DNA from: a virus
DNA length: 32,324 nt
Virus record (IMG/VR): IMGVR_UViG_3300022934_000093
Span: 1-32,324 of that record
Direction: 5' to 3' (one strand)
Shown: in pieces, positions 3,212 through 28,861 of the stretch
Position numbering within the stretch: position 1 is the stretch's first letter
How the letters are laid out: the number at the start of each line of letters is the position of its first letter
Made by a program: the position numbers and the translations under genes
The notes under the pieces: model-generated
What the model saw: the letters and a program-made list of their open reading frames with translations, nothing else
Told to the model about the DNA's origin: nothing
Databases searched by the model: none

Positions 3212-3463
3212 ATGATTAACTTTAAAGCGTATATCACAGAAGACGCTACCGCTGGTCTCAAGAAAAAAGCAGAAAAGTCAGGTATGCCTCTTGGTATCCT
3301 ACGTAAAGTTTATAATCGAGGAGTAGCTGCTTGGCGAACTGGTCATAGGCCGGGAACCACACCACAGCAATGGGGTATGGCTCGAGTAAATTCATTTGTT
3401 ACTAAATCATCAGGTACATGGGGCAAGGCAGACAAAGATCTGGCGGCGAGAGTAAAAGGATAA
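3212..3463 (+). CDS. DUF5824-like small phage protein with capsid-targeting-like leader
   Basis: 83 residues. The first ten, MINFKAYITE, followed by Asp, form the clearest match after the first gene to a T4-type internal-protein leader (I-T-E cut site). The body carries a KKAEKSGMPLG helix, then VYNRGVAAWRTGHRPGTTPQ and QWGMARVNSF. This pattern recurs in phage head-region proteins that I recall as DUF5824. The function is unknown. The gene begins two bases after the preceding stop and sits in the middle of the leader-bearing cluster, so it is probably a minor internal or prohead protein. Confidence 0.75.
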   Translation: MINFKAYITEDATAGLKKKAEKSGMPLGILRKVYNRGVAAWRTGHRPGTTPQQWGMARVNSFVTKSSGTWGKADKDLAARVKG

Positions 3464-3468
3464 AAAAA

Positions 3469-4689
3469 ATGGCAGTAAGATCAGCAGATAAAAAACCAGA
3501 AAAATACGTTGGGCCAGACGGGAAACCTAAAATTAGAATGGTTCCTGTTGATAAAAACGTTGTAAAAAACGAGGATGCTTCAAAAGAAGCTCAGCACCAC
3601 GCTCAAGGAATAAAAGATGCTAGAGCTGATATGAAAGCTGCTAAGTCTGCTGATGCTATGACTAAGGCCATGAATAAACTTCAGCATCATACGAAAGCTC
3701 ATAAGAAAGCCAAGGCTGCGATGAGTGAAGCATATAACGAGCCTCAAGGTCAAGCAAAAAGAATGATGTCGCCATTGCAAAAAATTAGAATGGATAAAGA
3801 AAAAGCTGATCGTGATAGTGAAGGTAAACTAAAACCAGGTGCAGTTAAGAAAGAAGCAAAGGTTGACGAACTATCAATGACTGCTATTAAAAAAGGTGTT
3901 ACTCAAGGTTCTGGTATGAAAAATGTAGCAAAAGCTATGGGCAAAGATAAATTGAAAAAAGATCTTGAAGCTATGAAAGCTAGAATGGCTACAGAAGATA
4001 ATGTAAATGAATTGAAAAAGTCAACTCTTGCTAGATATGTCAAAAAAGCAAGTGATGATCGTACTCAAAACGCATACGATGTTGGAAGAGGTGCTAGTCC
4101 TTGGGATAGTAAAAAAGGACTTAAAAGACGTCAAGGTATCAACAGAGCTGTAAACAGATTAGCAAAAGAAGAAACCAAAGTGGATGAAGTACTAGATCGT
4201 CCAGGTGCATTAGATAGTTATAGAAAGAAAGCTGATGCAAGTGGTAATAAAGCACGTAATTCAGCTGTTCGTAAAATTTTAACACCTCCGAAAGATGGCA
4301 AAAGACCAGATCATTCTGATGAATTGAAGACTATGAAAAAGCGCAATAAAGGCCAAGATATGGCAGACAGAGCTGCTAACAGACATTTCCGTAAATCTCT
4401 TGGACTTGGCTATAATAGCAAAAAAGAATCAGTTGAATATGTAAATGAAAAACTAAAAGTATCTGATGGTATGGGTGCTTGGGTAGATGATTTTAAAAAG
4501 TCAGATGCACCACAGTTTAAAGGTAAGTCAGATAAAGAACGCCGTGAAATGGCTATTGCGGCTTATCTATCTGCAAAACGTGGCGCTAAAGAAGAAGGTT
4601 ATGTTTCTTATGCTCAGCAAAAAGCGGTATGGGCAAATAGAAAAGATGGTGGAAAAGGTCATCCAGATAATAAAGGTAAAAAGAAATGA
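3469..4689 (+). CDS. Lys-rich probable prohead polyprotein with repeated VDE/VNE sites
   Basis: 406 residues from ATG 3469. An in-frame ATG at 3418 would overlap the previous gene and lacks a ribosome site. The protein is strongly basic and low in complexity. It contains VDE at 132-134, VNE at 179-181, VDE at 238-240 and VNE at 325-327. Each fits the hydrophobic-x-Glu rule of the T4 gp21 prohead protease, and each sits between helical, basic blocks. The block after 181 (ELKKSTLARYVKKAS) resembles repeats in other T4-like head proteins. The last 80 residues (SDGMGAWVDDFKKSDAP onward) look like a small conserved domain. The likely role is scaffold or internal-peptide precursor. That role is inference from motif placement; no homologous function is known to me. 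Confidence 0.75.
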   Translation: MAVRSADKKPEKYVGPDGKPKIRMVPVDKNVVKNEDASKEAQHHAQGIKDARADMKAAKSADAMTKAMNKLQHHTKAHKKAKAAMSEAYNEPQGQAKRMMSPLQKIRMDKEKADRDSEGKLKPGAVKKEAKVDELSMTAIKKGVTQGSGMKNVAKAMGKDKLKKDLEAMKARMATEDNVNELKKSTLARYVKKASDDRTQNAYDVGRGASPWDSKKGLKRRQGINRAVNRLAKEETKVDEVLDRPGALDSYRKKADASGNKARNSAVRKILTPPKDGKRPDHSDELKTMKKRNKGQDMADRAANRHFRKSLGLGYNSKKESVEYVNEKLKVSDGMGAWVDDFKKSDAPQFKGKSDKERREMAIAAYLSAKRGAKEEGYVSYAQQKAVWANRKDGGKGHPDNKGKKK

Positions 4690-9025: not shown

Positions 9026-10495
9026 ATGAGATATTGTGGCATAGTTGAAAATTTTCATAATGCAGCCATATGCTTTATTGAAGAAGATGGAACAATTAGC
9101 TTTGCATCTGAAAGCGAGCGCTTTAGTAAAAAGAAAAATGATGCTCTACTGCATCCGTACTTTCATGGTTTAATTAAAGACGATGACCACATATCTTTTT
9201 ATGAAGATATGGAATTACGGGACAAACATTTAGATCCAATCTTAAAATCTCTACCACAGTATAGTAAAGAGTTTGAAGAAAAATATCTTATCAGATTAGA
9301 TGATTTTAAGAAAAAAAGACCTTATCATTACGAAAAATTTTATACTCATCACGAATCACATGGTGCTGGAGCTTTTTATACTCGCCCATGGGATACATCT
9401 ACTGATACAGTCATTATGACAATTGATGGATTTGGTGAATACCAATCAGCTACTATAATGGATTCTAATTTCAATTTATTATATGAGAAAAAATATCCTG
9501 ATTCAATTGGGTTTTTGTATGCAATGGCAACAAAGGCTCTAGGATTAAAAGCTTTACAAGAAGAATATATTGTAATGGGTATGGCGGCATATGGACAACC
9601 TAGCTTTTTAGAAGAAATTGAAAACATTGCAAATGATTGTGCTGATACACCTATAAATGCTTTTATGGGTAGTATTATTCTTGATAAATTTAAAGAATAT
9701 GCAGAAACAGCAAAGTATGATTTTGCTTGTTCTATTCAAGCTTTAGCAGAAAAAGAAATAATGAAATTAGCGGTCATTGCAAGAGGATATGGATCTAAGC
9801 TTTGTTACAGTGGTGGTGTTGCACAAAACATTGTGGCCAATTCTAAAATTAGACCTTTATTCCAAGACATGTGGATAGCGATTAATCCAACTGATGGTGG
9901 ATCCTCAATTGGATCTGCTGCAAGAACTTGGGGTTTAGCAAATAATAAAAATAAAATAGAATGGAAAAATCCTTATCTTGGTTATGAAATGGGAGAAATA
10001 AATGCTACAGAAGTTGTTGACCATTTGCTTGAGTATAGTTATTGCGGGATTGCTAGTGGTCGTGCAGAGTTTGGTCCTCGTGCTTTGGGGAATCGGAGCC
10101 TTATTGCTGATCCCAGACGAGATATTAAAGACACAGTTAATCAAGTTAAACGGCGCCAAAAATTTCGACCCTTTGCACCTGCAATCTTGGAAGAATATGC
10201 TAATGAATACTTTGAAGGACCGATGAATGAATACATGCAGTACAGCTGTGATGCTAAACATGATTATAAATCTGTGACTCATGTTGATGGAACAGCAAGA
10301 GTTCAAATTGTAAGAAAAGACAATCCATCAATTTTAAGGAAAATTTTAGAAGAGTTTTACGAAAAAACTAGTGTGCCGATGCTTTTAAATACTTCTCTCA
10401 ATATTAGAGGTCGGCCAATTGTAAACGATAGATATGATTGTTTTCTATTTGAAAAATTAAATAAAACACGAGTTTTTTATAATGATATTGATTAA
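9026..10495 (+). CDS. NodU/TobZ-family carbamoyltransferase
   Basis: 489 residues. The N-terminal Kae1-like domain has the metal-site pattern HHESH (108-112), IDGFGE around D134, then SGGVAQN and NPTDGGSS. The C-terminal YrdC-like half has the family signature GRAEFGPRALGNRS and LLNTSLN. Family members use carbamoyl phosphate and ATP to carbamoylate a hydroxyl group, through a carbamoyl-adenylate. It is shorter than most NodU/CmcH proteins (about 560-600), but both domains appear complete. Relatives from marine viruses have been reported to carbamoylate 5-hydroxymethylcytosine, so a DNA-modification role is possible. A glycan or nucleoside substrate is equally open. It overlaps the SGNH-like gene by 14 bases. 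Confidence 0.92.
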   Translation: MRYCGIVENFHNAAICFIEEDGTISFASESERFSKKKNDALLHPYFHGLIKDDDHISFYEDMELRDKHLDPILKSLPQYSKEFEEKYLIRLDDFKKKRPYHYEKFYTHHESHGAGAFYTRPWDTSTDTVIMTIDGFGEYQSATIMDSNFNLLYEKKYPDSIGFLYAMATKALGLKALQEEYIVMGMAAYGQPSFLEEIENIANDCADTPINAFMGSIILDKFKEYAETAKYDFACSIQALAEKEIMKLAVIARGYGSKLCYSGGVAQNIVANSKIRPLFQDMWIAINPTDGGSSIGSAARTWGLANNKNKIEWKNPYLGYEMGEINATEVVDHLLEYSYCGIASGRAEFGPRALGNRSLIADPRRDIKDTVNQVKRRQKFRPFAPAILEEYANEYFEGPMNEYMQYSCDAKHDYKSVTHVDGTARVQIVRKDNPSILRKILEEFYEKTSVPMLLNTSLNIRGRPIVNDRYDCFLFEKLNKTRVFYNDID

Positions 10496-15812: not shown

Positions 15813-16040
15813 ATGCCATCATACACAATGATTAATAATGAGACCGGTGAAGAGAAAGAAATGATTCTTTCCTTAGCGGAACGAGAAGAAATCTTAGCCA
15901 CAGGAGAGTGGACTCAAAAGCTAGCTACTGCAAAATTTATTAGTCAACATGGAATGACTGTAAACAAAGCTGGGGACGGATGGAAAGATGTTCTTGGTAA
16001 AATTTCTAAAAATTCTCCTCGTAATAAAATGAACACATGA
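15813..16040 (+). CDS. small conserved phage protein related in layout to FmdB-like proteins
   Basis: 75 residues. MPSYTMINNETGEEKEM begins like the phage relatives of FmdB regulators (MPTYxF..), and GDGWKDVLGKISKNSPRNK at the end matches their C-terminal pattern. The zinc Cys pairs of true FmdB proteins are absent. It overlaps PhoH by 4 bases. The function is unknown. The start lies just after the UUCG hairpin without a good ribosome site, so its expression may depend on RNA folding or processing. Confidence 0.7.
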   Translation: MPSYTMINNETGEEKEMILSLAEREEILATGEWTQKLATAKFISQHGMTVNKAGDGWKDVLGKISKNSPRNKMNT

Positions 16041-16732
16041 AACGACAAAAGTCTGTTAACAATTCTATGTCAGTCAAATTGGATGATTTACTCCAGTTTG
16101 ATCCTCTCACAAAAAATCAAGAAATTGCATATAAATCATGGGATGATGGTGATAACTTAGTGTTAACTGGTACTGCCGGTACTGGTAAAACCTTTATGGC
16201 TCTTTATCTGGCATTAGAAGATGTTTTAGATAAAGAAACTGAATGGGATAAACTAGTTATTGTACGCTCAATGGTCCCCACAAGAGAGATGGGTTATTTA
16301 CCAGGAGATAAAGAAGCAAAAGAAGAAGCTTTTACCACACCATATAAATCTATCTGCCATGAGCTTTTTGGAGATAAGACTTCATATAATAAAATGGTAT
16401 CAGCAAATCAAATTCAATTTGAATCTACATCGTTTATTCGCGGTCAAACATTTGACAATACGATTATAGTTGTTGATGAAATGCAGAACCTAAACTTTCA
16501 TGAATTAGATTCTGTAATTACTCGCGTTGGCCGTCATAGTAAAATTATATTTAGTGGTGATTACAAACAAAGTGATTTTAAATTTGATGATGATAAACAA
16601 GGAATTGTAAGGTTCTTACAGATTGTTGAACAGCTTAAGAACTTTACTATTGTTAATTTCGGATGGGAAGACATTGTAAGATCAGACTTTGTCCGAGATT
16701 ATATTATGACAAAAGAAATGCTAGGTTATTAG
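16037..16732 (+). CDS. phoH: PhoH-family ATPase
   Basis: 231 residues. The Walker A motif GTAGTGKT spans residues 45-52. IVVDEMQN is Walker B, and SGDYKQSD is the sensor-like motif typical of PhoH. MVPTREMGYLPGD is the characteristic PhoH insert. PhoH proteins are cytoplasmic ATPases with RNA-related roles. They are extremely common in marine phages, where a link to phosphate limitation has been suggested but not settled. It shares 4 bases with the upstream gene and is followed within 10 bases by the next. Confidence 0.95.
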   Translation: MKRQKSVNNSMSVKLDDLLQFDPLTKNQEIAYKSWDDGDNLVLTGTAGTGKTFMALYLALEDVLDKETEWDKLVIVRSMVPTREMGYLPGDKEAKEEAFTTPYKSICHELFGDKTSYNKMVSANQIQFESTSFIRGQTFDNTIIVVDEMQNLNFHELDSVITRVGRHSKIIFSGDYKQSDFKFDDDKQGIVRFLQIVEQLKNFTIVNFGWEDIVRSDFVRDYIMTKEMLGY

Positions 16733-16939: not shown

Positions 16940-17501
16940 TTGCGATGGCGTACTCATGAATTGGGAGTATGCTTTTAATGTTTGGATGCAAAGCCACGGC
17001 TATGAAATGGTTGATGGTGGTGAAGAATGTTATGATATGGGCGATCGGTATGGATTAGATCGTCAAACAAAAAAGCTAATGTGTAAGATGTTTAATGAAT
17101 CTGCAGCCATTGGCTTCTTACCACCGCTACGTGATGCCATGTATTACGTAGATCTATTACACCGTAAGCATGGATATACTTTTCATATGATTACATCTCT
17201 GTCCAAAGATGAATCAGCTCAAAAGCTTCGTATCCAAAATACTCAAAAGCTATTTGGTGAGACTGCATTTACTAAGTTTATTTTTGAAGATACTGGAGCT
17301 GATAAAGACAATGTTCTTGCACCTTATGCTGATTCCGGATTGATTTGGATTGAAGATAAATTAGAAAATGCTGAATTAGGCGATAGTCTTGGATTAGAAA
17401 GTCTTGTTGTAGAACATGCTCACAACATGCATAACGAAGATTTTCCAACCTTTTCTAAATGGGAATACATATATGAATACATTACTGGAGAATCAGCCTA
17501 A
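16905..17501 (+). CDS. HAD-superfamily phosphatase, 5'(3')-deoxyribonucleotidase-like
   Basis: 198 residues from ATG 16905, with AAGGAG at 16893-16898; the ATG at 16890 precedes that site. LTDCDGVLMNW (nucleophile D12, acid/base D14) is HAD motif I. MITSLSKDE supplies motif II (Thr/Ser), and IWIEDKLENAE resembles the acidic motif of late HAD regions. Size and order fit phage nucleotidases that act on dNMPs, but sugar phosphates are also possible given the glycan genes downstream. It overlaps the oxygenase-like gene by 29 bases, which ties it to that operon. Confidence 0.8.
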   Translation: MMNNLNKVILTDCDGVLMNWEYAFNVWMQSHGYEMVDGGEECYDMGDRYGLDRQTKKLMCKMFNESAAIGFLPPLRDAMYYVDLLHRKHGYTFHMITSLSKDESAQKLRIQNTQKLFGETAFTKFIFEDTGADKDNVLAPYADSGLIWIEDKLENAELGDSLGLESLVVEHAHNMHNEDFPTFSKWEYIYEYITGESA

Positions 17502-18036
17502 GCTTCCAGATCATATCCATGTGTTTGATGTAGAAGGTCATGAGCAGTATAAACCTCTGCTTTTGAAATCTATAGAAGAGATGATAGAGAAAAATAATAT
17601 AGAGCCAAATGAAAAAGGTTATCTGTATGACTATCCTATGAATGTACCAAAAACATATGAAAAATTATTTGAACAATTAATATATCCATATGTAATGGAA
17701 GTTGCTGAAATATACGGGTTGCAACCAGAATATAAAAAAATAAAACCTTGGTTTCAACAATATACTCAAAACTCAGATTTTGGTTGGCATCAACACAACG
17801 GACATTGGGCAGTAGTATATTATTTAGAACTACCTGAAATGTCAGAAGCGACTGAATTTTTACATTATGATATTCCTTTAAAAGAAGGGCAGTTGATATT
17901 TTTTCCAACTTTTTTAGTACATAGATCTCCTATAATAAAAAGTAATACACGAAAAACTATTATAGCAACCAATGTGAGTTATCAAGTTGATAGAGAGTTA
18001 ATACAAAGTTATGGCGAAAAACATTTTAAACATTGA
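17473..18036 (+). CDS. putative 2OG-Fe(II) oxygenase
   Basis: 187 residues from ATG 17473. The core WHQHNGHWAVVYYLELPE (around 105-122) matches the strand carrying the first metal His in 2OG-FeII_Oxy_5-like proteins. FFPTFLVHRSP gives the distal His, and RKTIIATNVS the basic residue that binds 2-oxoglutarate. The exact second ligand of the HxD/E pair is unclear, so metal binding may be atypical. Such enzymes hydroxylate small molecules, proteins or nucleic acids. Placement ahead of two methyltransferase/glycosyltransferase-like genes, with overlaps on both sides, suggests tailoring of a glycan or metabolite. Confidence 0.65.
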   Translation: MNTLLENQPKLPDHIHVFDVEGHEQYKPLLLKSIEEMIEKNNIEPNEKGYLYDYPMNVPKTYEKLFEQLIYPYVMEVAEIYGLQPEYKKIKPWFQQYTQNSDFGWHQHNGHWAVVYYLELPEMSEATEFLHYDIPLKEGQLIFFPTFLVHRSPIIKSNTRKTIIATNVSYQVDRELIQSYGEKHFKH

Positions 18037-18619
18037 CGATCATTACTTACGTTATCCAAAAGATGAATGGGGTGGAACTGATTTAAATAATCCAGACATG
18101 ATTAATCCTTGGATTGAGATGCAAGAAATAATTAATCCAAAGAAAGTAATTGAAATTGGAATGTGGGCAGGACATGCATCTCTTGTGATGATGACTGTAT
18201 TTAAAAATTTGGAATCTTTAGTAAGCTACGATCCAAATGTTGTATCAGAAAAAAATGCAAGACAGATTAAAAAGTATTGGCCGCAACATACATTTTATAA
18301 AGAACCTATTTGGGGAAATGAGCATAGGCATACTGATATTGATTTAATTTTTGTTGATGGCAAACACATTGATGATTTCCCTAAAAAAGATTTAAAATCT
18401 TGTATGAAAATAAAACCTCGCTATATTCTAGTAGATAATATTGAATTATACGATGTTAGACTTGCTTGCAAAAGAACCTACAAATTGTTTGATATAAAAT
18501 ACGATCCAAAATATTATTTTTATACAAATATAAAATATAGTTCAGTCGCAAAATATTATGCAAACACTCCTAGTATCATGGGATTATTTAAAATGGAAGG
18601 CCACTATGACTCTGTTTGA
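18011..18619 (+). CDS. class I SAM-dependent methyltransferase-like protein
   Basis: 202 residues. KVIEIGMWAGHASL (about 44-57) is the glycine-rich SAM-binding motif I. VSYDPN is the acidic end of strand 2, and DLIFVDGKH is the motif typical of the Methyltransf_24/cephalosporin-hydroxylase-like group that modifies sugars and antibiotics. The C-terminal part is Tyr/Lys-rich without recognised motifs. It overlaps the oxygenase-like gene by 26 bases and the following small gene by 14. The target is unknown; a sugar hydroxyl is my best guess. Confidence 0.75.
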   Translation: MAKNILNIDDHYLRYPKDEWGGTDLNNPDMINPWIEMQEIINPKKVIEIGMWAGHASLVMMTVFKNLESLVSYDPNVVSEKNARQIKKYWPQHTFYKEPIWGNEHRHTDIDLIFVDGKHIDDFPKKDLKSCMKIKPRYILVDNIELYDVRLACKRTYKLFDIKYDPKYYFYTNIKYSSVAKYYANTPSIMGLFKMEGHYDSV

Positions 18620-19623: not shown

Positions 19624-20583
19624 ATGCATATTGATCGTGCAGTAATAGAAATTAATGGTGGTTGCAACTATACTTGCCAAATGTGTCCACAAACAAATGA
19701 AGATGGAACACATGGTGCTCGTGGCAAAAACTGGTTAAAGAAGATGCCACTGGATGTATTTGAAGACTATGTGGCTCAATGCGCAGAAGCAGGTTTAAAC
19801 GTAGTTAACCTTGAAGGTTCTGGTGAACCAACACTAAATCGTAACTTACCAGAATATGTTGCAATTGTAAAGAAGTACGGTGCTAAGGCATTTATGTTTA
19901 CAAATGGATTTCGTATGACAGGTCAGTTTATGCATGAGGTTGTTGACGCTGGTGCTGATTTTATTCGATTTTCAATGATTGGTTATGATGAAGAGACTTA
20001 TCGCCAATGGATGAATAGTAGTTCTTTCAAAACTGTTAAATATAATTTAGAAGAAACAGCGGCTTATGTTTACGCCACATTATCAGATTGTGTTGTGGCG
20101 ACATATCATTTGATTCTTGATAATGATAATATAGATTATGAAGTAGAACAATATCGTAAGATTGTTGAAGGTGCTGGCGTAAAGACCGAAATTTGGAAGA
20201 TGCATAATTGGAGTGGAGTATATGATCCAAATTATGAAAGAGTGGGCCAAAAGAAAACTTGCGGAAGACCCTTCAGCCCTGATATTGTTATCCGCGCTGG
20301 TGGTATCGGCGGGAACGTTGGGGCTATTCATCCTTGCTGCCAAGTACTTGGAAGAGATGATGAAGCTGTACTAGGTCATTTATCAAAGAATTCTCTAGAA
20401 GACATCTGGTACGGGGATAAATATAATAAGCTACGTAAAGATCATGAGATGGGTAACTGGCCATCTTACTGCAATGATTGTGATTTCTTAATTGATGATC
20501 CTGAAGTATTAGTTTATACAAACCATGAAAGAGATCTTTATAAAATGCACGGTACAAATTTTAACTTGGATGATTACAGATGA
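19624..20583 (+). CDS. radical SAM enzyme with SPASM-like C-terminus
   Basis: 319 residues. CNYTCQMC gives the CX3CX2C cluster site (C14, C18, C21) that binds the [4Fe-4S] cluster for SAM cleavage. LEGSGEPTLN is the GE motif that contacts SAM. Further Cys residues, CGRPF, HPCC and CNDCDF in the last third, fit an auxiliary cluster domain of the SPASM/twitch type. Relatives carry out peptide, sugar or cofactor maturation. It starts exactly after the previous stop codon and overlaps the next gene by 4 bases. Codons (CGT, GGT) differ from the AGA-rich genes on both sides. The substrate is unknown; no small precursor peptide is obvious beside it. Confidence 0.9.
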   Translation: MHIDRAVIEINGGCNYTCQMCPQTNEDGTHGARGKNWLKKMPLDVFEDYVAQCAEAGLNVVNLEGSGEPTLNRNLPEYVAIVKKYGAKAFMFTNGFRMTGQFMHEVVDAGADFIRFSMIGYDEETYRQWMNSSSFKTVKYNLEETAAYVYATLSDCVVATYHLILDNDNIDYEVEQYRKIVEGAGVKTEIWKMHNWSGVYDPNYERVGQKKTCGRPFSPDIVIRAGGIGGNVGAIHPCCQVLGRDDEAVLGHLSKNSLEDIWYGDKYNKLRKDHEMGNWPSYCNDCDFLIDDPEVLVYTNHERDLYKMHGTNFNLDDYR

Positions 20584-21158: not shown

Positions 21159-21806
21159 ATGTCTTATTTTGAAATCTATATGATCTCTATGAAGCACCAT
21201 CCTATTTCTGAAATGTATAAAAGAGAAGTGCTTCCATCATGGAAAGAATATGAAGTAAAACAATTTGAAGCGGTCACACCAAAAGATTTATATAAAAAGA
21301 CAAAGATTGATTTTGGTTTTAAAACCGCTGGTAGAAAAAGAGAATTTACTTCTACTGAAAAAGCAGTATGGTACAGCCATTTTGAATTGTGGTGTGAATG
21401 TGTAAAAATAAAAAAACCAATCCTTATTTTAGAGCATGATTCTAAATTAGTAAAACCTTTACCAGACATGTCAAAAGAAGGTTATAAATTTTTATCCTTT
21501 ATTAATAGAGATTATGATCCGATAGGTATTCATTTAGCTCCAGGATCCGGATATTATATCACTCAAACTGTCGCAGAAAGACTTGTAGCACAAGCAGTGG
21601 TGAAGCCTATATGGCAAAATAGCGATGGGCATATAGGAACTGTGTTGAATTTCAAACGCCAAAAAGAAATGAACGACTATCATTATATTGAACAGATAAA
21701 TATTGATGGATTAAACACGATAGACCACAAAAATCCTAATAGAACATTTATAGGCCAAGATTATGAAAACATTGATTTATCAAGTATACACCGGAAAGCG
21801 GTCTAA
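21159..21806 (+). CDS. GT25-family-like glycosyltransferase
   Basis: 215 residues. EFTSTEKAVWYSHFELW is the conserved segment preceding the active site. ILILEHDSKLV carries E92-H93-D94, equivalent to the E-D-D triad of LPS-type GT25 enzymes. GSGYYITQTVAERLV and WQNSDGHIG match the C-terminal acceptor region. It should transfer a hexose from a nucleotide sugar. The end overlaps the next gene by 44 bases, the longest overlap in this operon. Confidence 0.8.
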   Translation: MSYFEIYMISMKHHPISEMYKREVLPSWKEYEVKQFEAVTPKDLYKKTKIDFGFKTAGRKREFTSTEKAVWYSHFELWCECVKIKKPILILEHDSKLVKPLPDMSKEGYKFLSFINRDYDPIGIHLAPGSGYYITQTVAERLVAQAVVKPIWQNSDGHIGTVLNFKRQKEMNDYHYIEQINIDGLNTIDHKNPNRTFIGQDYENIDLSSIHRKAV

Positions 21807-22545
21807 GCTATACGATCATTGCACATCCAGCGTGGCAGAATATGCAGAACGAATTGGTGCAGAATATATTCAACAGCGACAACCTATTCTTATGATTAAG
21901 CCTGATATTTTTCAGACTAATAGATCAAATGAATCGTATATGAAGTATGGTGGGTTTCTTCCTATCTATGAAAAAGAAAATGCCTTTACATACCTTAAAA
22001 CATATGATAAAATAGCTGTAATAGATGCAGATGTGTGGATTAGACCAGAGTGCAATGAATCAATCTTTGATGAAGTTGGAGATGAATATCATTTTGGTGC
22101 TGTAGTTGAAAGAGATATGCCTATTACTGAAAAGTATAAACAAAAAATCTCAAACTATTCTCGTATGCAATATGGTACTATTAAGAATGTAGATTGGAAA
22201 TGGAATATCCTTGGCGCTGAGTTTATGAATATGGGGGTTATGGTTTTAAATAAATCTATTGAAAAATATTTAAATGGTGAAACTCCAAAACAGTTTTTAA
22301 GCCGGCCAAGATTTAAACCATTCATTGATGGTCTTGGCCCGTGGAAATGGTCTACTGACCAAACTCTTCTTAATACGTGGATTCGTGAAGAGAAAATGAA
22401 TATTAAACACATGGACTGGAAATGGAATGGTCTCTATAGTGCCAACACAAAAATCAAGGAATGTAATTTTGTGCATTTCTTCTTAAAAGATTTACTACCT
22501 AATCGTGGTGAGAATGTAGAACAACTGATGAAAGATATTACATGA
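21763..22545 (+). CDS. GT-A (GT8-like) glycosyltransferase, paralogue 1
   Basis: 260 residues. The start MKTLIYQVYTG and EYAERIGAEY (26-35) are shared with three paralogues at 24418, 25212 and 25910. KIAVIDADVWI holds the metal-binding DxD (D88, D90), and EFMNMGVMVLNK the NxG-type sugar-binding segment. Conserved Trp-rich stretches (DWKWN) appear twice near the end. It should be an inverting or retaining transferase on a nucleotide sugar; the sugar is not deducible. It overlaps the SQD1 homologue by 4 bases, so the two products probably act in one pathway. Confidence 0.8.
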   Translation: MKTLIYQVYTGKRSKLYDHCTSSVAEYAERIGAEYIQQRQPILMIKPDIFQTNRSNESYMKYGGFLPIYEKENAFTYLKTYDKIAVIDADVWIRPECNESIFDEVGDEYHFGAVVERDMPITEKYKQKISNYSRMQYGTIKNVDWKWNILGAEFMNMGVMVLNKSIEKYLNGETPKQFLSRPRFKPFIDGLGPWKWSTDQTLLNTWIREEKMNIKHMDWKWNGLYSANTKIKECNFVHFFLKDLLPNRGENVEQLMKDIT

Positions 22546-23702
22546 GAATTATAGTATTAGGTGGTGATGGTTTTTGTGGTTGGCCAACGGCTTTGAAACT
22601 AGCAAATAGCTACCATGATGTTTTAATTATTGATAATCTATCTAGACGTAATATTGATAATGATTTATCCAGTAATTCATTAACAAATATTGCTTCGATT
22701 ACTGATCGAATTAAGACGGCTAATTACTTTATTAATGAACAACATGAAGGTGGCTATATAGATTTCTTCCATTGCGACATTGCAAAGGATTATCATCTAT
22801 TACAACAAAAAATAAAAGAATATAAACCTGATGCTATTGTTCACTTTGCAGAACAACGCGCAGCACCATATTCTATGATTAGCCAGAAAGAACGTAGATA
22901 CACAGTAGATAATAATATAACAGGAACTCATAACGTACTGAATGCTATTGTTGATACTGATCCTAATATTCATCTTGTTCACCTTGGGACTATGGGTGTG
23001 TATGGTTACAATAAAGACTTTGGAGATATTCCTGAAGGCTATTTAAATATCAAAGTAAACTCTACTCAAAAAGATGTGGATGTTTTATATCCTACACAAC
23101 CCGGTAGTGTTTACCATATGACTAAATCATTGGATCAAATTCTATTTCAATTCTATAATAAGAATTGGGGTTTAAAGATTACAGATCTACATCAAGGTAT
23201 TGTATGGGGAACTCAAACTTTAGAAACTATGTTGCATGAAAATCTAATTAATAGATTTGATTATGATGGCATTTATGGTACGGTATTAAATAGATTTATT
23301 TCTCAGGCTGCAACTGGTAATGATATTACTGTGTATGGAACTGGTGGCCAACAACGAGCCTTTATCCATATTAGAGATACAGCCAACTGTGTAAAGCTAG
23401 CTATTGAGAATCCATCCAAAGAGAATAAAGTTAGAATATTCAACCAAGTATCTGAAGTAAGATCTGTAAAAGAACTTGCATATATTGTTGCTGAACAGGA
23501 TGAAAAACGAATTCAATTCTTGGATAATCCACGGAAAGAATTAAAAGAAAACGAACTAAGCGTAAAGAATGAAGGTCTCAAATCTTTAGGCTTTAATCCA
23601 ATTACTCTTTCTGAAGGCCTTATTCAGGATGTAAAATTCATTGCCAAACAAATGAAAGAGAATTTGAACCCCGCAAATATTTTGACATCCCCAAGGTGGT
23701 AA
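22542..23702 (+). CDS. sqdB: UDP-sulfoquinovose synthase (SQD1/SqdB family)
   Basis: 386 residues. GGDGFCGW (7-14) is the SQD1-specific form of the NAD-binding loop. HFAEQRAAPYSM (101-112), LGTMGVYG with Thr150, YHMTK (Tyr191, His192, Lys195), DLHQGIVWG, HENLINRFDYD and YGTGGQQR follow plant and cyanobacterial SQD1 step by step. The enzyme makes UDP-sulfoquinovose from UDP-glucose and sulfite, using bound NAD. The length matches the family (about 390-400). The catalytic Thr/Tyr/Lys and His residues are present. It overlaps the upstream glycosyltransferase by 4 bases. No SqdX-type lipid transferase or sulfite-producing enzyme is in the window. Confidence 0.9.
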   Translation: MRIIVLGGDGFCGWPTALKLANSYHDVLIIDNLSRRNIDNDLSSNSLTNIASITDRIKTANYFINEQHEGGYIDFFHCDIAKDYHLLQQKIKEYKPDAIVHFAEQRAAPYSMISQKERRYTVDNNITGTHNVLNAIVDTDPNIHLVHLGTMGVYGYNKDFGDIPEGYLNIKVNSTQKDVDVLYPTQPGSVYHMTKSLDQILFQFYNKNWGLKITDLHQGIVWGTQTLETMLHENLINRFDYDGIYGTVLNRFISQAATGNDITVYGTGGQQRAFIHIRDTANCVKLAIENPSKENKVRIFNQVSEVRSVKELAYIVAEQDEKRIQFLDNPRKELKENELSVKNEGLKSLGFNPITLSEGLIQDVKFIAKQMKENLNPANILTSPRW

Positions 23703-23703
23703 T

Positions 23704-24417
23704 ATGATTTCAGGAACTACAGATAGAAATACTTTGGCTCTTATAAGAGAATTAGAAAAACATGGTCATAAAATTAATACTGTTTATGACATTGGTGCGA
23801 ACGATGGAAGATGGTTTAAATCATATAAGCCACATTTAAAAGATTCAGCATTTATTATGTTTGAAGCAAATCCAAAAATTGATTTCAATCCTTCTATAGA
23901 ACCTATGATTGGTAGTCTCAAAGATAGATTTTTTAATCAGGTATTATCTGATGAGGATGGTAAAACAGTTGATTTCTACATCTTAAATGATGGACTTAAA
24001 AAAGAAAATACTGGTCATAGTTATTATAGAGAATTGACTCCGGCTTATACTGAAGGCAATTCAATTAAACTAAAGACTAAAAAATTAGATACAATGATTA
24101 CTGAAAATCTTCTACCTTTACCTGATTTTATCAAAATGGATACTCAAGGTGCAGAAGTAGATATTATGAATGGCGGCCCAACAGCTTTGGAACACTGTAA
24201 AATTCTAGTAACTGAAATGCCAATTAGTCGTTATAATGAAGGTGCACCAAAATTAAGTACGTACTTTGATACGTTATACGATCATGGCTTTATTCCATCA
24301 GGTGTAGATCACATCGCAATCCGTCAAGGCGTATTTAATCAAATGGATGTTGTATTTGTTAAAAAAGAAATTGTCCAAAAAATTCATAATTACAAAGGTC
24401 GTTATTTGGGGTTCTAA
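23704..24417 (+). CDS. FkbM-family methyltransferase
   Basis: 237 residues. VYDIGANDGRW (27-37) is motif I of FkbM methyltransferases, and FIKMDTQGAEVDIMNGG is their diagnostic second motif. Members methylate sugar hydroxyls in polysaccharides, glycolipids and macrolides. It begins one base after the SQD1 homologue stop and ends directly before the next glycosyltransferase, which places methylation inside the sugar-assembly pathway. Confidence 0.9.
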   Translation: MISGTTDRNTLALIRELEKHGHKINTVYDIGANDGRWFKSYKPHLKDSAFIMFEANPKIDFNPSIEPMIGSLKDRFFNQVLSDEDGKTVDFYILNDGLKKENTGHSYYRELTPAYTEGNSIKLKTKKLDTMITENLLPLPDFIKMDTQGAEVDIMNGGPTALEHCKILVTEMPISRYNEGAPKLSTYFDTLYDHGFIPSGVDHIAIRQGVFNQMDVVFVKKEIVQKIHNYKGRYLGF

Positions 24418-25224
24418 ATGAAAACAGTTATCTATCAATATTGGGATGGACCTACCACCAGTGGAAATGAAGCTGGACGTAAGGCTATGAAAGAATATGC
24501 TGATCGTATTGGATCAGATTATATTTATGAGCATGAACCTAAGTTTGTTACCAACCTTGGTAGATATTCTCCACATTATGGTTCATTCAAACCAGTCTTT
24601 ACTGAAAGCTTCCATGAGTATGATTATGTGATGTTTGCTGATACTGATGTCTTTCCGGTTGAAGGTTTGACTGAAAATATCTTTGAACAATTTTGTAATA
24701 CTGATTATGAGATTGGAATCTGTGAAGAGTGGAATGCACCAGACGCAAGAGTCAAACATACGATTGGTGGTATCAATAATTTCAATGATGAACAATGGGT
24801 AAAGCTTATTGAAGATACTTACAATGTGCAAATGCCACGTAACGAAAAAGGTCTTCCAAGAGTTTACAATTCAGGTGTAGTTGTTTATTCAAAATTTGGT
24901 CTATTAAAAGCAAAATATAAGTTTACAAAGTTTGACCAATATGTTAGAATGGTACAGACAAAAGGATTACCATCTTTTTATACTTGTGACCAACCATATC
25001 TACATGCCATGCTAGAAATTGGTGGCTTTAAATGGAAGACTATGGATTACAAATGGAATAGTTCGGTTCACTACAAGCCCGGTACGAAAGGCCCTCAGAG
25101 GCCCGTTAATGACCTGAGAGACAACGCAAACCTAGTCCATATCCAGTTAGGTGGTGCAGATAATTTAGATGAAGAGACCTTAAAAAGAATTACTAACCTA
25201 CCAGTGGATCAATGGCAAATTTAA
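24418..25224 (+). CDS. GT-A (GT8-like) glycosyltransferase, paralogue 2
   Basis: 268 residues. MKTVIYQYWDG and EYADRIGSDY (26-35) repeat the first paralogue almost position for position. The metal site is ADTDV (D75, D77). VYNSGVVVYSK is the sugar-binding segment, and TCDQPYLHAML matches the acceptor-side Asp. It overlaps the next paralogue by 13 bases, consistent with tandem duplication and coupled translation. Confidence 0.8.
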   Translation: MKTVIYQYWDGPTTSGNEAGRKAMKEYADRIGSDYIYEHEPKFVTNLGRYSPHYGSFKPVFTESFHEYDYVMFADTDVFPVEGLTENIFEQFCNTDYEIGICEEWNAPDARVKHTIGGINNFNDEQWVKLIEDTYNVQMPRNEKGLPRVYNSGVVVYSKFGLLKAKYKFTKFDQYVRMVQTKGLPSFYTCDQPYLHAMLEIGGFKWKTMDYKWNSSVHYKPGTKGPQRPVNDLRDNANLVHIQLGGADNLDEETLKRITNLPVDQWQI

Positions 25225-25913
25225 TATTACAACATTGGAATAATCTTAATGGAAAATCTATGCCTGAATGGGCTAGTTGTGCCACTCAAACGATACGTAA
25301 ATATTCTCAATCTATTGGTGTTGAATACCGACTTATTGACGGATGGCCTATGGGAGAATTTAGAGGAGCGGTATCTCAAAAGCTAGCATTAATCTTAGAA
25401 GAATACGATAAATATGATCAAGTTCTAATGTTAGATGCTGATATGATTGCCACAAAACATATTGATGATGTATTTCAATATGAAGGAATTGGTCGATTAC
25501 ATTTAAAAGCTATGAGCTCTCAACAAGCAACTAAGCAAGGTAAATACTGGCCAAACTTGTATCGTCAAGGTGAACCATTATTTTTTGGTAACTTTATTAA
25601 ATTAACTCGTGAAGAACGTCAAGCATTACGTAAACATATTCCATCAGAAGAAATGTGTAATGAAAATATGAGTGATCCAAGCTTGTCACGCTTTAAAACA
25701 TCAATGCCACCAAATGACGAACAGCAAATGCATTGGATGATTCATCAGTCTGGTATTTTAAAAGATAAAAAACAATTAATGGTTCCACACGATAAGTTTT
25801 GTGATTTACCAGAAGAAGCACATCCACAAGCTACAATGATGCATTATTGTAATTCACGTAAAAATCAGATTCCAGATGCAGTTAGAAAAATATATGGACT
25901 TGAAATACTATGA
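25212..25913 (+). CDS. GT-A glycosyltransferase, paralogue 3
   Basis: 233 residues. The start MANLILQHWN and YSQSIGVEYR (31-40) align with the other tandem copies. LDADM (D75, D77) is the DxD site. The segment between the DxD and the C-terminus differs: FFGNFIKL replaces the usual N-x-G motif, and PNDEQQMHWMIHQS is the acceptor-side region. It is clearly the same fold, but probably with another acceptor or donor. It overlaps paralogue 4 by 4 bases. Confidence 0.75.
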   Translation: MANLILQHWNNLNGKSMPEWASCATQTIRKYSQSIGVEYRLIDGWPMGEFRGAVSQKLALILEEYDKYDQVLMLDADMIATKHIDDVFQYEGIGRLHLKAMSSQQATKQGKYWPNLYRQGEPLFFGNFIKLTREERQALRKHIPSEEMCNENMSDPSLSRFKTSMPPNDEQQMHWMIHQSGILKDKKQLMVPHDKFCDLPEEAHPQATMMHYCNSRKNQIPDAVRKIYGLEIL

Positions 25914-26623
25914 AGAATATTATCCTACAACATTTCCAACCACATGAAAAATACCTTCATGAAAAAGAGCACTTTATTGTAGAGAAGAGTTCTGAGAATA
26001 TCGCACGCTATGCTGAGAGTCTTGGTGCAGAATATAAAATGTTGAATGGTAAACCATTTATGGAAGATCTTCGTATGCAATGCCAAAAGCTATGCATGTT
26101 AAATGAAGAATATGATGACTATGACACAGTGGTTATGTTAGACACCGATATGTTTGTTCGTAAAGATATGGGCATGAATGTGTTTGAAGCAAAAGGAGTA
26201 GCCTGCTATGATTCAGTCCATAGAGATCGTCAACATCCAAATTTCTGTAGAGAGTTTCCTGGATTCTCAGATCGTAATGTCCAGCTCTGGTCCGGTGCAT
26301 GTTATGTACTAGATAAAGAAACACGACTTAAATTCAGAGAACAAATTAATCCAACCACAAAAGCTATGATGCGTCAAATTAGTCCAAAGCCATATGTTGA
26401 TGAAGGCATTCTACATATGCTTGCGGTGTATGGTAAACTAGGTTATAGTGTCTATGATAAATCGCTGGATGAGAAATGGCAATATAGTCATTATCTTCCA
26501 AAAGTTGAAGAGTCTTATTTGATTCATATCCGCAAAAGACCATATGGAGATGAAGATGGAGTTTATGGTGCTAAGATGAAAAACTACTATGAATTAGTAG
26601 AACGCGGTTTAATAGAAGAATAA
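25910..26623 (+). CDS. GT-A glycosyltransferase, paralogue 4
   Basis: 237 residues. MKNIILQHFQ and RYAESLGAEY (33-42) show the shared family start. MLDTDMF holds D78-x-D80, and LWSGACYVLDK is the sugar-binding segment (S-G instead of N-S/M-G). YVDEGILHML supplies the later acidic residue. It is the last of the four tandem copies and ends before the only 24-base gap of the operon. Confidence 0.75.
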   Translation: MKNIILQHFQPHEKYLHEKEHFIVEKSSENIARYAESLGAEYKMLNGKPFMEDLRMQCQKLCMLNEEYDDYDTVVMLDTDMFVRKDMGMNVFEAKGVACYDSVHRDRQHPNFCREFPGFSDRNVQLWSGACYVLDKETRLKFREQINPTTKAMMRQISPKPYVDEGILHMLAVYGKLGYSVYDKSLDEKWQYSHYLPKVEESYLIHIRKRPYGDEDGVYGAKMKNYYELVERGLIEE

Positions 26624-26647: not shown

Positions 26648-27514
26648 ATGAATGATTTAGTAAATTCCATAAAAGATAATTTCAATTCTAATATATTTAA
26701 TGGTGACTTGAGTGCATTCACAAATAAGATAGAACAAAATCTTCTTTTTGGAATTCCATCGTTTATTATTACAATGCATAACGACTCAGCGTCTACTGTA
26801 GGCGCTAGAAAATTAATTCAATCTATACGCCAGACAAAAAGTCTATTTAATCCAGTAATATATCCAGCCACAACTCTAGAAACTTTGGATGAAGATCTTG
26901 AAAAGCTTGGTTTAACTTTAGATGCTTGGACATGGCCAACCACTCCAGGACAAAAGCGTTTGGATTTAAAAAGTGGATTAGAATTAAGTGGCTATGGTGC
27001 TAAAGATTATAGAAAGGTTGTAGCATGTTTAGTTTCTCATATGAGATTATGGGTTACTGCAGCCAATTTAAATCATCCAATAGTTATCTTTGAACATGAT
27101 GCTATTATGAAAAGACCATTTACTATTGAACATTGGCGAAAAATGTATATCAAAAAAGATGAAACTCTAAACGCTAGTGATGATTTTGGTATTATTGGTC
27201 TAAATGATCCACGCGGGGCTACAAGAAAAGCTAATGTTTATTTAGAAAAAGTTATGGAGGCTTCAAATGAAAGCCCTTCAATTACTGTACCATCTCCCTG
27301 GATTGATTCAAAAGAAATTCCTCAAGGCATTGCTGGAAATTCAGCATATATAATTGGACCAAAGCCAGCACGTAAACTCTTATCAATAATTGGTGAGTAT
27401 GGTTTATGGCCAAATGACGCATTGATGTGTAGACAATTAATGGGTCCAGTATTACATCAAGCATATCCATTCTTTACTGGATTACAAGGGATTAAATCTA
27501 CAACCCAAGGATAA
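26648..27514 (+). CDS. GT25-like glycosyltransferase with N-terminal extension
   Basis: 288 residues. PSFIITMHN (near 37-45) is the first Rossmann strand, placed after an extra 35 residues that the other copies lack. SHMRLWVTA precedes IVIFEHDAIM with E149-H150-D151. GNSAYIIGPKPARKLL and WPNDALMCRQ complete the GT25 pattern. A 24-base gap separates it from the GT-A run. No strong ribosome site is evident (GGTTTTCC upstream). Confidence 0.75.
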   Translation: MNDLVNSIKDNFNSNIFNGDLSAFTNKIEQNLLFGIPSFIITMHNDSASTVGARKLIQSIRQTKSLFNPVIYPATTLETLDEDLEKLGLTLDAWTWPTTPGQKRLDLKSGLELSGYGAKDYRKVVACLVSHMRLWVTAANLNHPIVIFEHDAIMKRPFTIEHWRKMYIKKDETLNASDDFGIIGLNDPRGATRKANVYLEKVMEASNESPSITVPSPWIDSKEIPQGIAGNSAYIIGPKPARKLLSIIGEYGLWPNDALMCRQLMGPVLHQAYPFFTGLQGIKSTTQG

Positions 27515-27516
27515 TT

Positions 27517-28164
27517 ATGAAAAATTTTGTTATTACACTACGTGACAATGATAAATCTATTTTAGCTGCAGAAAAATGTATTCAATCGGGAGAACGATTT
27601 GATTTACAAATCGATTTCTTTGAAGCATTTACTCCAGCAACTTGTAAAGATTTTATTAAAGAACAAAAGATAAACGATAAACTCTTTGATAATAATAAAT
27701 TTTCAAGAGAGGATAATGCCCGTGCAGCTTTCTGTTCTCACTTTGCTTTGTGGTTAACATCAATAGAGATGAATGAAGAAGTTACTATATTTGAACATGA
27801 TGCTATTATTATGGACAATATACCAAATGTAGAGCATAATGGTTGTATTTCATTTGGTAAACCATCATATGGTAATTTTAATCAACCACCAATGCTTGGT
27901 AGAAATCGTTTAGTTTCTAAGCCATATTTTCCTGGAGCACACGCTTATCGTGTCAAACCAAACGCTGCTAAAGTGCTTGTTGAAAGAGCAAGACTTGAAG
28001 CTAGACCTACTGATGTATTCTTAAATGTTGAAACATTTCCATTTCTAGAGGAATATTATCCTTGGCCAGTAGAGGTAAGAGAAACATTTACAACCATCCA
28101 AAAAGAACAAGGGTGTTTAGCCAAGCATATGTATAATAAGGACTATGTGATAGAGGAAGTATAA
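27517..28164 (+). CDS. GT25-family-like glycosyltransferase
   Basis: 215 residues. MKNFVITLRDNDKS is the first strand with the family's R-D/N contact. AAFCSHFALWL precedes TIFEHDAII with E93-H94-D95. PGAHAYRVKPNAAKVLVERA and RPTDVFLN are the acceptor-side motifs. It follows the previous GT25-like gene by 2 bases and is its closest neighbour in motif spelling, so the two may be recent duplicates or may act in succession. Confidence 0.8.
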   Translation: MKNFVITLRDNDKSILAAEKCIQSGERFDLQIDFFEAFTPATCKDFIKEQKINDKLFDNNKFSREDNARAAFCSHFALWLTSIEMNEEVTIFEHDAIIMDNIPNVEHNGCISFGKPSYGNFNQPPMLGRNRLVSKPYFPGAHAYRVKPNAAKVLVERARLEARPTDVFLNVETFPFLEEYYPWPVEVRETFTTIQKEQGCLAKHMYNKDYVIEEV

Positions 28165-28165
28165 T

Positions 28166-28861
28166 ATGACAGTGACAGTCGCTTGTGTCTATTGGGGCAA
28201 TAAGTTTTCTATAGATTATGTTTATAATTTAAAAGCAGCAGTAGAACGAAATACAACAATTCCCCATGAATTTGTATGCTTTTCTGATAAAGGAATTCCA
28301 GGTGTTAAAACAAAAATACTAAGACCTGGATACGAAGGATGGTGGAATAAACTACAACTATTTGATCCAGCAAATAAAGCTGGAGATCGAATGGTTTACT
28401 TAGACCTTGATACTATTATTACTGGTAATATTGATTGGTTGCTCGAAGATCGATCATGGTTTATGGGTATTGAAGATGTTGGAGCGGTGAATGCACACCA
28501 ACCACATCTAAAAAATAAATTACAAACTGGTGTAATGGCATGGGATTTTAATCCTGTTTCTTTTATTTGGAATGAATTTGTACTCAGCCATGATCGTGTT
28601 TTAGACACTTATAGAGGTGATGGTGAATATCTAAGTTCTATTATTAATCCATATCAACGTACTTTATTGCAACACAAATATAAAGACAAATTGAAGTCTT
28701 ACAAATATGATATATATCCAGGACCACCGAATAAAGATGTTTCAATCGTTTGTTTCCACGGAAGACCAAGTATTGAACAGGCGATGGCGGAAACCATTGT
28801 AACTCCAATGGCAACATATAACCCACAAACTTGGATAAAGGATTATTGGAAGCATGACTAG
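28166..28861 (+). CDS. GT8-like glycosyltransferase, separate family
   Basis: 231 residues. VACVYWGNKFSIDYVYNL and HEFVCFSDKGI resemble the start of glycogenin/GT8-type transferases. VYLDLDTII holds the DxD (D80, D82), LQTGVMAWDF the N/T-G segment, and VCFHGRPS the C-terminal His that binds the metal. It lacks the YxxxIGxEY block of the four tandem paralogues, so it is an independent acquisition. It overlaps the next gene by 8 bases. Confidence 0.75.
   Translation: MTVTVACVYWGNKFSIDYVYNLKAAVERNTTIPHEFVCFSDKGIPGVKTKILRPGYEGWWNKLQLFDPANKAGDRMVYLDLDTIITGNIDWLLEDRSWFMGIEDVGAVNAHQPHLKNKLQTGVMAWDFNPVSFIWNEFVLSHDRVLDTYRGDGEYLSSIINPYQRTLLQHKYKDKLKSYKYDIYPGPPNKDVSIVCFHGRPSIEQAMAETIVTPMATYNPQTWIKDYWKHD

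Follow-up and report, generated by a model that had tools for sequence, protein, structure and literature searches.

Few organosulfur compounds are as abundant as sulfoquinovose, which is known chiefly from the head groups of lipids and occurs only rarely in glycans, as in the Sulfolobus S-layer. For the lipid, alphaproteobacteria use SqdD and SqdC, and SqdX is not the sole possible partner of the UDP-sulfoquinovose (UDP-SQ) synthase. In R. sphaeroides, sqdB is part of an sqdBDC operon and is needed for SQDG (PMC11346425). That UDP-SQ can serve to build a protein glycan has a precedent in Agl3 (PMC4388408). Replacement of its residues His95, Arg101, Met145, Tyr182 or Lys186 by Ala abolished activity, the T144A variant was still active, and the Agl3 counterpart of the Glu in the TMGE motif of SQD1 matters for dehydration (PMC4388408). 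The fingerprint of UDP-SQ synthases was given as [ST]MG...YxxxK (PMC8987622). As for viruses, a putative UDP-SQ synthase in a Mu-like metagenomic phage from the Cariaco Basin was published in 2020 and discussed by its authors under glycosylation (PMC7785012). This contradicts the sequence-only reading of the present locus, according to which such an enzyme had not been described for phages. Our literature search returned no relevant report on cyanophage sqdB, and a roseophage paper merely cited work on sulfoquinovose. Within the open-access literature searched, a broad T4-like clade, the bacterial-SqdB identity of the enzyme, its setting in a glycosylation island and a viral pair of PAPS reductase and sqdB were undescribed and appear new.

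The gene studied here lies on a 32,324-base IMG/VR virus contig of a marine phage, classed as linear and possibly a fragment; this whole stretch is called the window in the following. Its sqdB is an intact open reading frame from ATG to stop (Table 1), and the coordinates, the motifs GGDGFCGW, AEQRAAPYSM, YHMTK and HENLINRFDYD and the numbering of T150, Y191 and K195 were all as the sequence-only reading had given them. Pfam assigned the protein to the Epimerase family. The NCBIfam model UDPsulfquin_syn (NF041015) matched it with E = 2e-108 and 362.8 bits, the next family reaching 65 bits. This score is below the curated cut-off of 575 bits, but the SqdB proteins of the S. meliloti and Loktanella sqdBDC operons obtained 332 and 328 bits, respectively, with the same model. 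Since S. meliloti SqdB scores even lower than the phage protein, the cut-off fits the plant and cyanobacterial SQD1 branch only, and the idea that the low score denotes a different enzyme was dropped. As a consequence of this cut-off, genes of the bacterial SqdB branch are labelled plain epimerases. Searched with phmmer, the PDB yielded SQD1 with E = 3e-94 and the next molecule with about 4e-12. An AlphaFold2 model of the phage protein (pLDDT 89.8, pTM 0.92) aligned to SQD1 with Z 56.5 and an rmsd of 1.5 over 375 residues, compared to Z values around 34 for GalE, RmlB and Pal. In an annotated phage collection, close relatives were lacking, and the matches were limited to generic epimerases at 24-26%.

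In the alignment, T150, Y191 and K195 occupy the positions of the SQD1 catalytic triad, and the fingerprint is present as T150-M151-G152 together with Y191 and K195. H101, R106 and M151 are the counterparts of Agl3 His95, Arg101 and Met145, and the residues essential in Agl3 are retained, as far as the correspondence can be read through SQD1. The Glu following TMG in SQD1 (Glu147 in Agl3) is Val153 in the phage protein. S. meliloti SqdB, the functionality of which is taken from its operon and from published genetics of that operon type, has Val as well, so that the Glu is a hallmark of the SQD1/Agl3 type, and the family as a whole does not require it. At the alignment sites chosen, 56 of 57 residues are identical between the two proteins, I244 for D being the sole difference. 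The phage enzyme shows the bacterial-SqdB signature TMGVYGY, TDLHQGIVWG and NRFDYD, where SQD1 has TMGEYGT, TDLNQGVVYG and NRLDYD instead. The motifs initially described as SQD1-specific are thus all there, but the term was overstated: YHMTK holds the general YxxxK of SDR enzymes, and the signature is that of bacterial SqdB. In an SqdB relative on another viral contig (L044:9992-11152), EQR of the HFAEQR motif is changed to EIK, with Lys as the equivalent of Agl3 Arg101; substrate use is possibly altered in this protein.

The phage protein is 52% identical to S. meliloti SqdB over its whole length. Relatives were present in hundreds of bacterial contigs, the best 80 being 52-66% identical. In an 89-row tree, 33 viral sequences including that of the window formed a clade (100/95) with those of Amylibacter kogurei (L073) and a MAG (L074), both Rhodobacteraceae. 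This clade was sister to the other bacterial SqdBs (97/85), and SQD1 and cyanobacterial SqdB fell outside the bacterial SqdB branch (split 96/92 or better). Judged by its sequence, the phage protein is a member of the bacterial SqdB branch and not of the plant/cyanobacterial SQD1 branch. When 12 generic epimerase-like outgroup rows were included, all UDP-SQ synthases, the phage protein among them, grouped together at 100/100; the phylogeny, proposed earlier as a check, did not place it among ordinary epimerases. Ten phage pairs gave dN/dS values of 0.03-0.18, a clear sign of purifying selection. Sequence, predicted structure, rooted tree, active-site residues and selection agree, so that the enzyme identity put forward in the sequence-only reading is well supported; taking the enzyme assignment alone, we are confident that the gene encodes the predicted SqdB-type UDP-SQ synthase. 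Of four cyanobacterial genomes searched, two have both branches, with a single copy each, whereas Xenococcus PCC 7305 and Leptothoe kymatousa (L083, L086) possess a bacterial-branch SqdB only, with no SQD1-type copy at E 1e-40.

Relatives of the phage SqdB are encoded at 71 IMG/VR loci, most of them in a single clade of T4-like phages. The order of RNR, RNase H and PhoH is common to the window and Rhizobium phage RHph_I1_18; together with the T4 gp15, neck and gp32 proteins identified at related loci, this indicates that the window stems from a T4-like phage. In a second set of loci (L049-L060 and L067), whose contigs reach 266 kb and carry a viral classification, the sqdB sequences were nested among cellular ones, outside the T4-like clade, and their position in the tree suggests separate acquisitions. 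On the Amylibacter kogurei chromosome (L073:8001-15826), the phage-clade sqdB stands beside genes for an Stf0 sulfotransferase and glycosyltransferases, which suggests exchange between phages and a host surface-glycan cluster. Directly upstream of sqdB, two of the window's nearest phage relatives (L003:9060-10001 and L010:8842-9801) carry a further gene for a nucleotide-sugar epimerase-like protein, which is only distantly related at 24% identity. Among 71 neighbour proteins from related phage loci, one contained a ferredoxin-dependent bilin reductase domain (PF05996, E 1e-13). Elsewhere in the window, positions 9026-10495 encode a NodU/Nol-like carbamoyltransferase (phrog_1601, E 9e-85).

Downstream of PhoH, the window carries a variable island in which sqdB has an operon-like setting. 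The genes for a 2OG-Fe(II) oxygenase, a methyltransferase, a radical SAM/SPASM protein, a GT25 and a GT-A enzyme precede it; those for FkbM, three GT-A-like proteins, two GT25 enzymes and a further glycosyltransferase follow (Table 1). This order was seen again, with changes, in many phages. The glycosyltransferase-rich surroundings that had been read from the sequence are borne out by the GT25 and GT-A genes. A promoter scan gave fewer hits than in shuffled sequence.

Table 1. Features of the glycosylation island around sqdB and its 5' border (positions in the window).
Feature	Position	Strand	Basis or remark
PhoH, T4-like core gene, 5' border of island	16037..16732	+	PF02562 E 1e-42; order as in Rhizobium phage RHph_I1_18
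2OG-Fe(II) oxygenase-like, island 5' side	17416..18036	+	phrog_81 E 9e-20
Methyltransferase	18011..18619	+	PF13578 E 7e-6
Radical SAM/SPASM protein, in island	19624..20583	+	PF04055 and PF13186
GT25-family glycosyltransferase	21159..21806	+	PF01755 E 2e-10
GT-A fold glycosyltransferase, overlaps sqdB start	21763..22545	+	AF2 pLDDT 91.4; Z 17.0 to 2p73
Predicted UDP-sulfoquinovose synthase, SqdB type, 386 aa	22542..23702	+	active site T150, Y191, K195, H101, R106, M151
FkbM methyltransferase	23704..24417	+	PF05050 E 5e-14; TIGR01444
GT-A-like protein (DxD), paralogue of 21763	24418..25224	+	BLAST 25% over 230 aa, E 8e-11
GT-A-like protein, DxD motif (LDAD)	25212..25913	+	BLAST similarity to 25910
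GT-A-like protein (DxD), paralogue of 25212	25910..26623	+	BLAST
GT25-family glycosyltransferase	26648..27514	+	PF01755 E 2e-10
GT25-family glycosyltransferase	27517..28164	+	PF01755 E 6e-9
Phage glycosyltransferase family	28166..28861	+	phrog_1962 E 2e-20

The nearest solved fold of the glycosyltransferase starting at 21763 was that of the PBCV-1 capsid glycosyltransferase (2p73, Z 17.0), followed by UGGT, LgtC and glycogenin. Genes of this type occurred at 77 further loci, only six of which had sqdB, making sqdB an accessory of the island. With sqdB absent at 41 loci that extend at least 5 kb downstream, we rejected this enzyme as a dedicated sulfoquinovosyltransferase; it is a general island gene, found frequently in phages whether or not they have sqdB. 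Two other genes did track sqdB: FkbM was found at 8 of 18 sqdB loci versus 1 of 41 without sqdB, and the GT-A-like gene at 25212-25913 at 9 of 18 versus 1 of 41, in a comparison of non-redundant sqdB loci that covered about 30 genes without correction and that shared lineage may inflate. From this co-occurrence, the protein encoded at 25212-25913 is the best candidate for a sulfoquinovosyltransferase.

In a pSymB-labelled S. meliloti record and in Loktanella, where phosphonate-uptake genes lie alongside, the order is sqdB-sqdD-sqdC. A relative of sqdD was present at 28 of 82 cellular loci, mostly no further than about 100 bp downstream of sqdB. Among the window proteins, neither BLAST nor phmmer nor hhalign found a full-length SqdD relative, and sqdB has no sqdC-like neighbour in the window. 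SqdD aligned to window proteins in the DxD segment only (best E 0.006 over 23 residues; 22-45 columns in hhalign), as expected for any GT-A enzyme, and we rejected homology of the island glycosyltransferases to SqdD. Among the island proteins searched with Pfam, no GT-B family was recognised in this record, which is a fragment. In line with the earlier statement that a lipid transferase (SqdX) is missing, no recognisable lipid sulfoquinovosyltransferase stood beside sqdB among the proteins searched, nor was a full-length SqdD relative found in the window.

PAPS reductase makes sulfite, and its gene was found near a bacterial-branch sqdB at five cellular loci: directly downstream in L170, just upstream on the other strand in L141, L116 and L096, and further upstream in L115. 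L170 (6001-7907) is a 41-kb plasmid of Pelagovum pacificum on which sqdB, then PAPS reductase, are encoded with glycosyltransferases nearby. These five loci, with no sqdD found alongside, mark a bacterial pairing of sqdB with sulfite. On the viral contig L072 (region 9348-10267), the start of an sqdB truncated by the contig end adjoins or overlaps a gene for PAPS reductase (PF01507, E 2e-29), and a major head protein is encoded at 3428-4351; by its sequence, this is a possible phage-encoded module for sulfite and UDP-SQ. Together, the cellular loci and L072 tie the SqdB branch, including a virus, to sulfite. PAPS reductase was absent from the other 34 of the 35 virus records searched, which would depend on host sulfite, and none was found in 18 records of the T4-like clade.

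We consider it probable that the phage converts host UDP-glucose and sulfite to UDP-SQ, which then serves a glycosylation directed by the phage. The NAD-bound enzyme would oxidise C4 of host UDP-glucose and eliminate water to give the 4-keto-5,6-ene, whereupon addition of sulfite at C6 and reduction at C4 would yield UDP-SQ. Sulfite would be supplied by host sulfate assimilation and, in one related virus, by the phage-encoded PAPS reductase. One of the GT-A-like transferases nearby, with the above-mentioned candidate in first place, would then transfer sulfoquinovose to a glycan that the remaining island transferases assemble on virion proteins or the host surface. We infer this acceptor because of the glycosylation-island setting, the precedent of Agl3 and the missing sqdD and sqdC. 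Val at the position of the SQD1/Agl3 Glu and the absence of PAPS reductase in 34 of 35 virus records count against the proposed role. A more general proposal, that a widespread marine T4-like lineage makes UDP-SQ and puts sulfonated sugars on virions or on the surface of infected hosts, with some other viruses bringing PAPS reductase, is made tentatively.

The phage enzyme might instead top up the host UDP-SQ pool for SQDG, sparing phosphate during infection for example, with SqdD/SqdC or SqdX provided by the host. Its position in the same branch as the sqdBDC enzymes would fit, as would its Rhodobacterales and Rhizobiales relatives with sqdBDC, that of Loktanella next to phosphonate-uptake genes. 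PhoH upstream of sqdB points in the same direction, but this gene belongs to the T4-like core and also occurs where sqdB is absent. In view of the lack of a full-length sqdD relative or sqdC-like neighbour in the window, and of an sqdB that lies within a glycosylation island and tracks a specific glycosyltransferase and FkbM, we consider a role in SQDG supply unlikely. We attach the same low probability to a diverged SqdB-like dehydratase that uses no sulfite and releases another product, for instance UDP-glucose-5,6-ene or some other sugar substituted at C6. Agl3 does yield the 5,6-ene without sulfite (PMC4388408), and the Val next to the catalytic TMG as well as the NCBIfam score below cut-off could be taken as signs of such a divergence. 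Yet S. meliloti SqdB has the same Val and an even lower score, Arg106 and the other Agl3-essential residues are retained, and PAPS reductase is paired with sqdB in this branch, including in one virus.

DNA glycosylation is known in T4, and the phage being T4-like, the sulfosugar could go onto modified bases of its DNA in the way T4 uses glucose. This is very improbable: the glycosyltransferase at 21763 has a GT-A fold closest to capsid, protein and LPS transferases, and the window proteins that were searched included no recognisable base-hydroxymethylating enzyme, a weak argument in a record that is a fragment.

If the phage does make UDP-SQ for glycosylation, viruses would have a route of their own into organosulfur, and virions or host surfaces would bear a sulfonated decoration. 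The Cariaco phage, compared here by its published description, likewise has a viral UDP-SQ synthase gene discussed in the context of glycosylation, but it is Mu-like, from deep euxinic water and a single case (PMC7785012). With Arabidopsis SQD1 and cyanobacterial SqdB, the phage enzyme shares the fold (Z 56.5, rmsd 1.5), the catalytic Thr, Tyr and Lys and the TMG motif; these proteins, however, form a separate branch and have Glu where the phage has Val, and the phage is without a recognised SqdX/SQD2 partner. Agl3 of Sulfolobus acidocaldarius resembles the phage enzyme in that UDP-SQ is likely destined for a glycan instead of a lipid and in the essential residues, kept when compared via SQD1, but it has Glu147 in place of the phage Val and belongs to an archaeal N-glycan pathway. 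The phage gene differs from that of S. meliloti in being part of a glycosylation island, with no sqdD or sqdC after it, and a short C-terminal extension is confined to the S. meliloti protein. Among the SqdB proteins of the sqdBDC type, from S. meliloti and R. sphaeroides (Rsp_2569), that of S. meliloti, 52% identical, is in the same branch as the phage enzyme and matches it at 56 of 57 sites including Val153.
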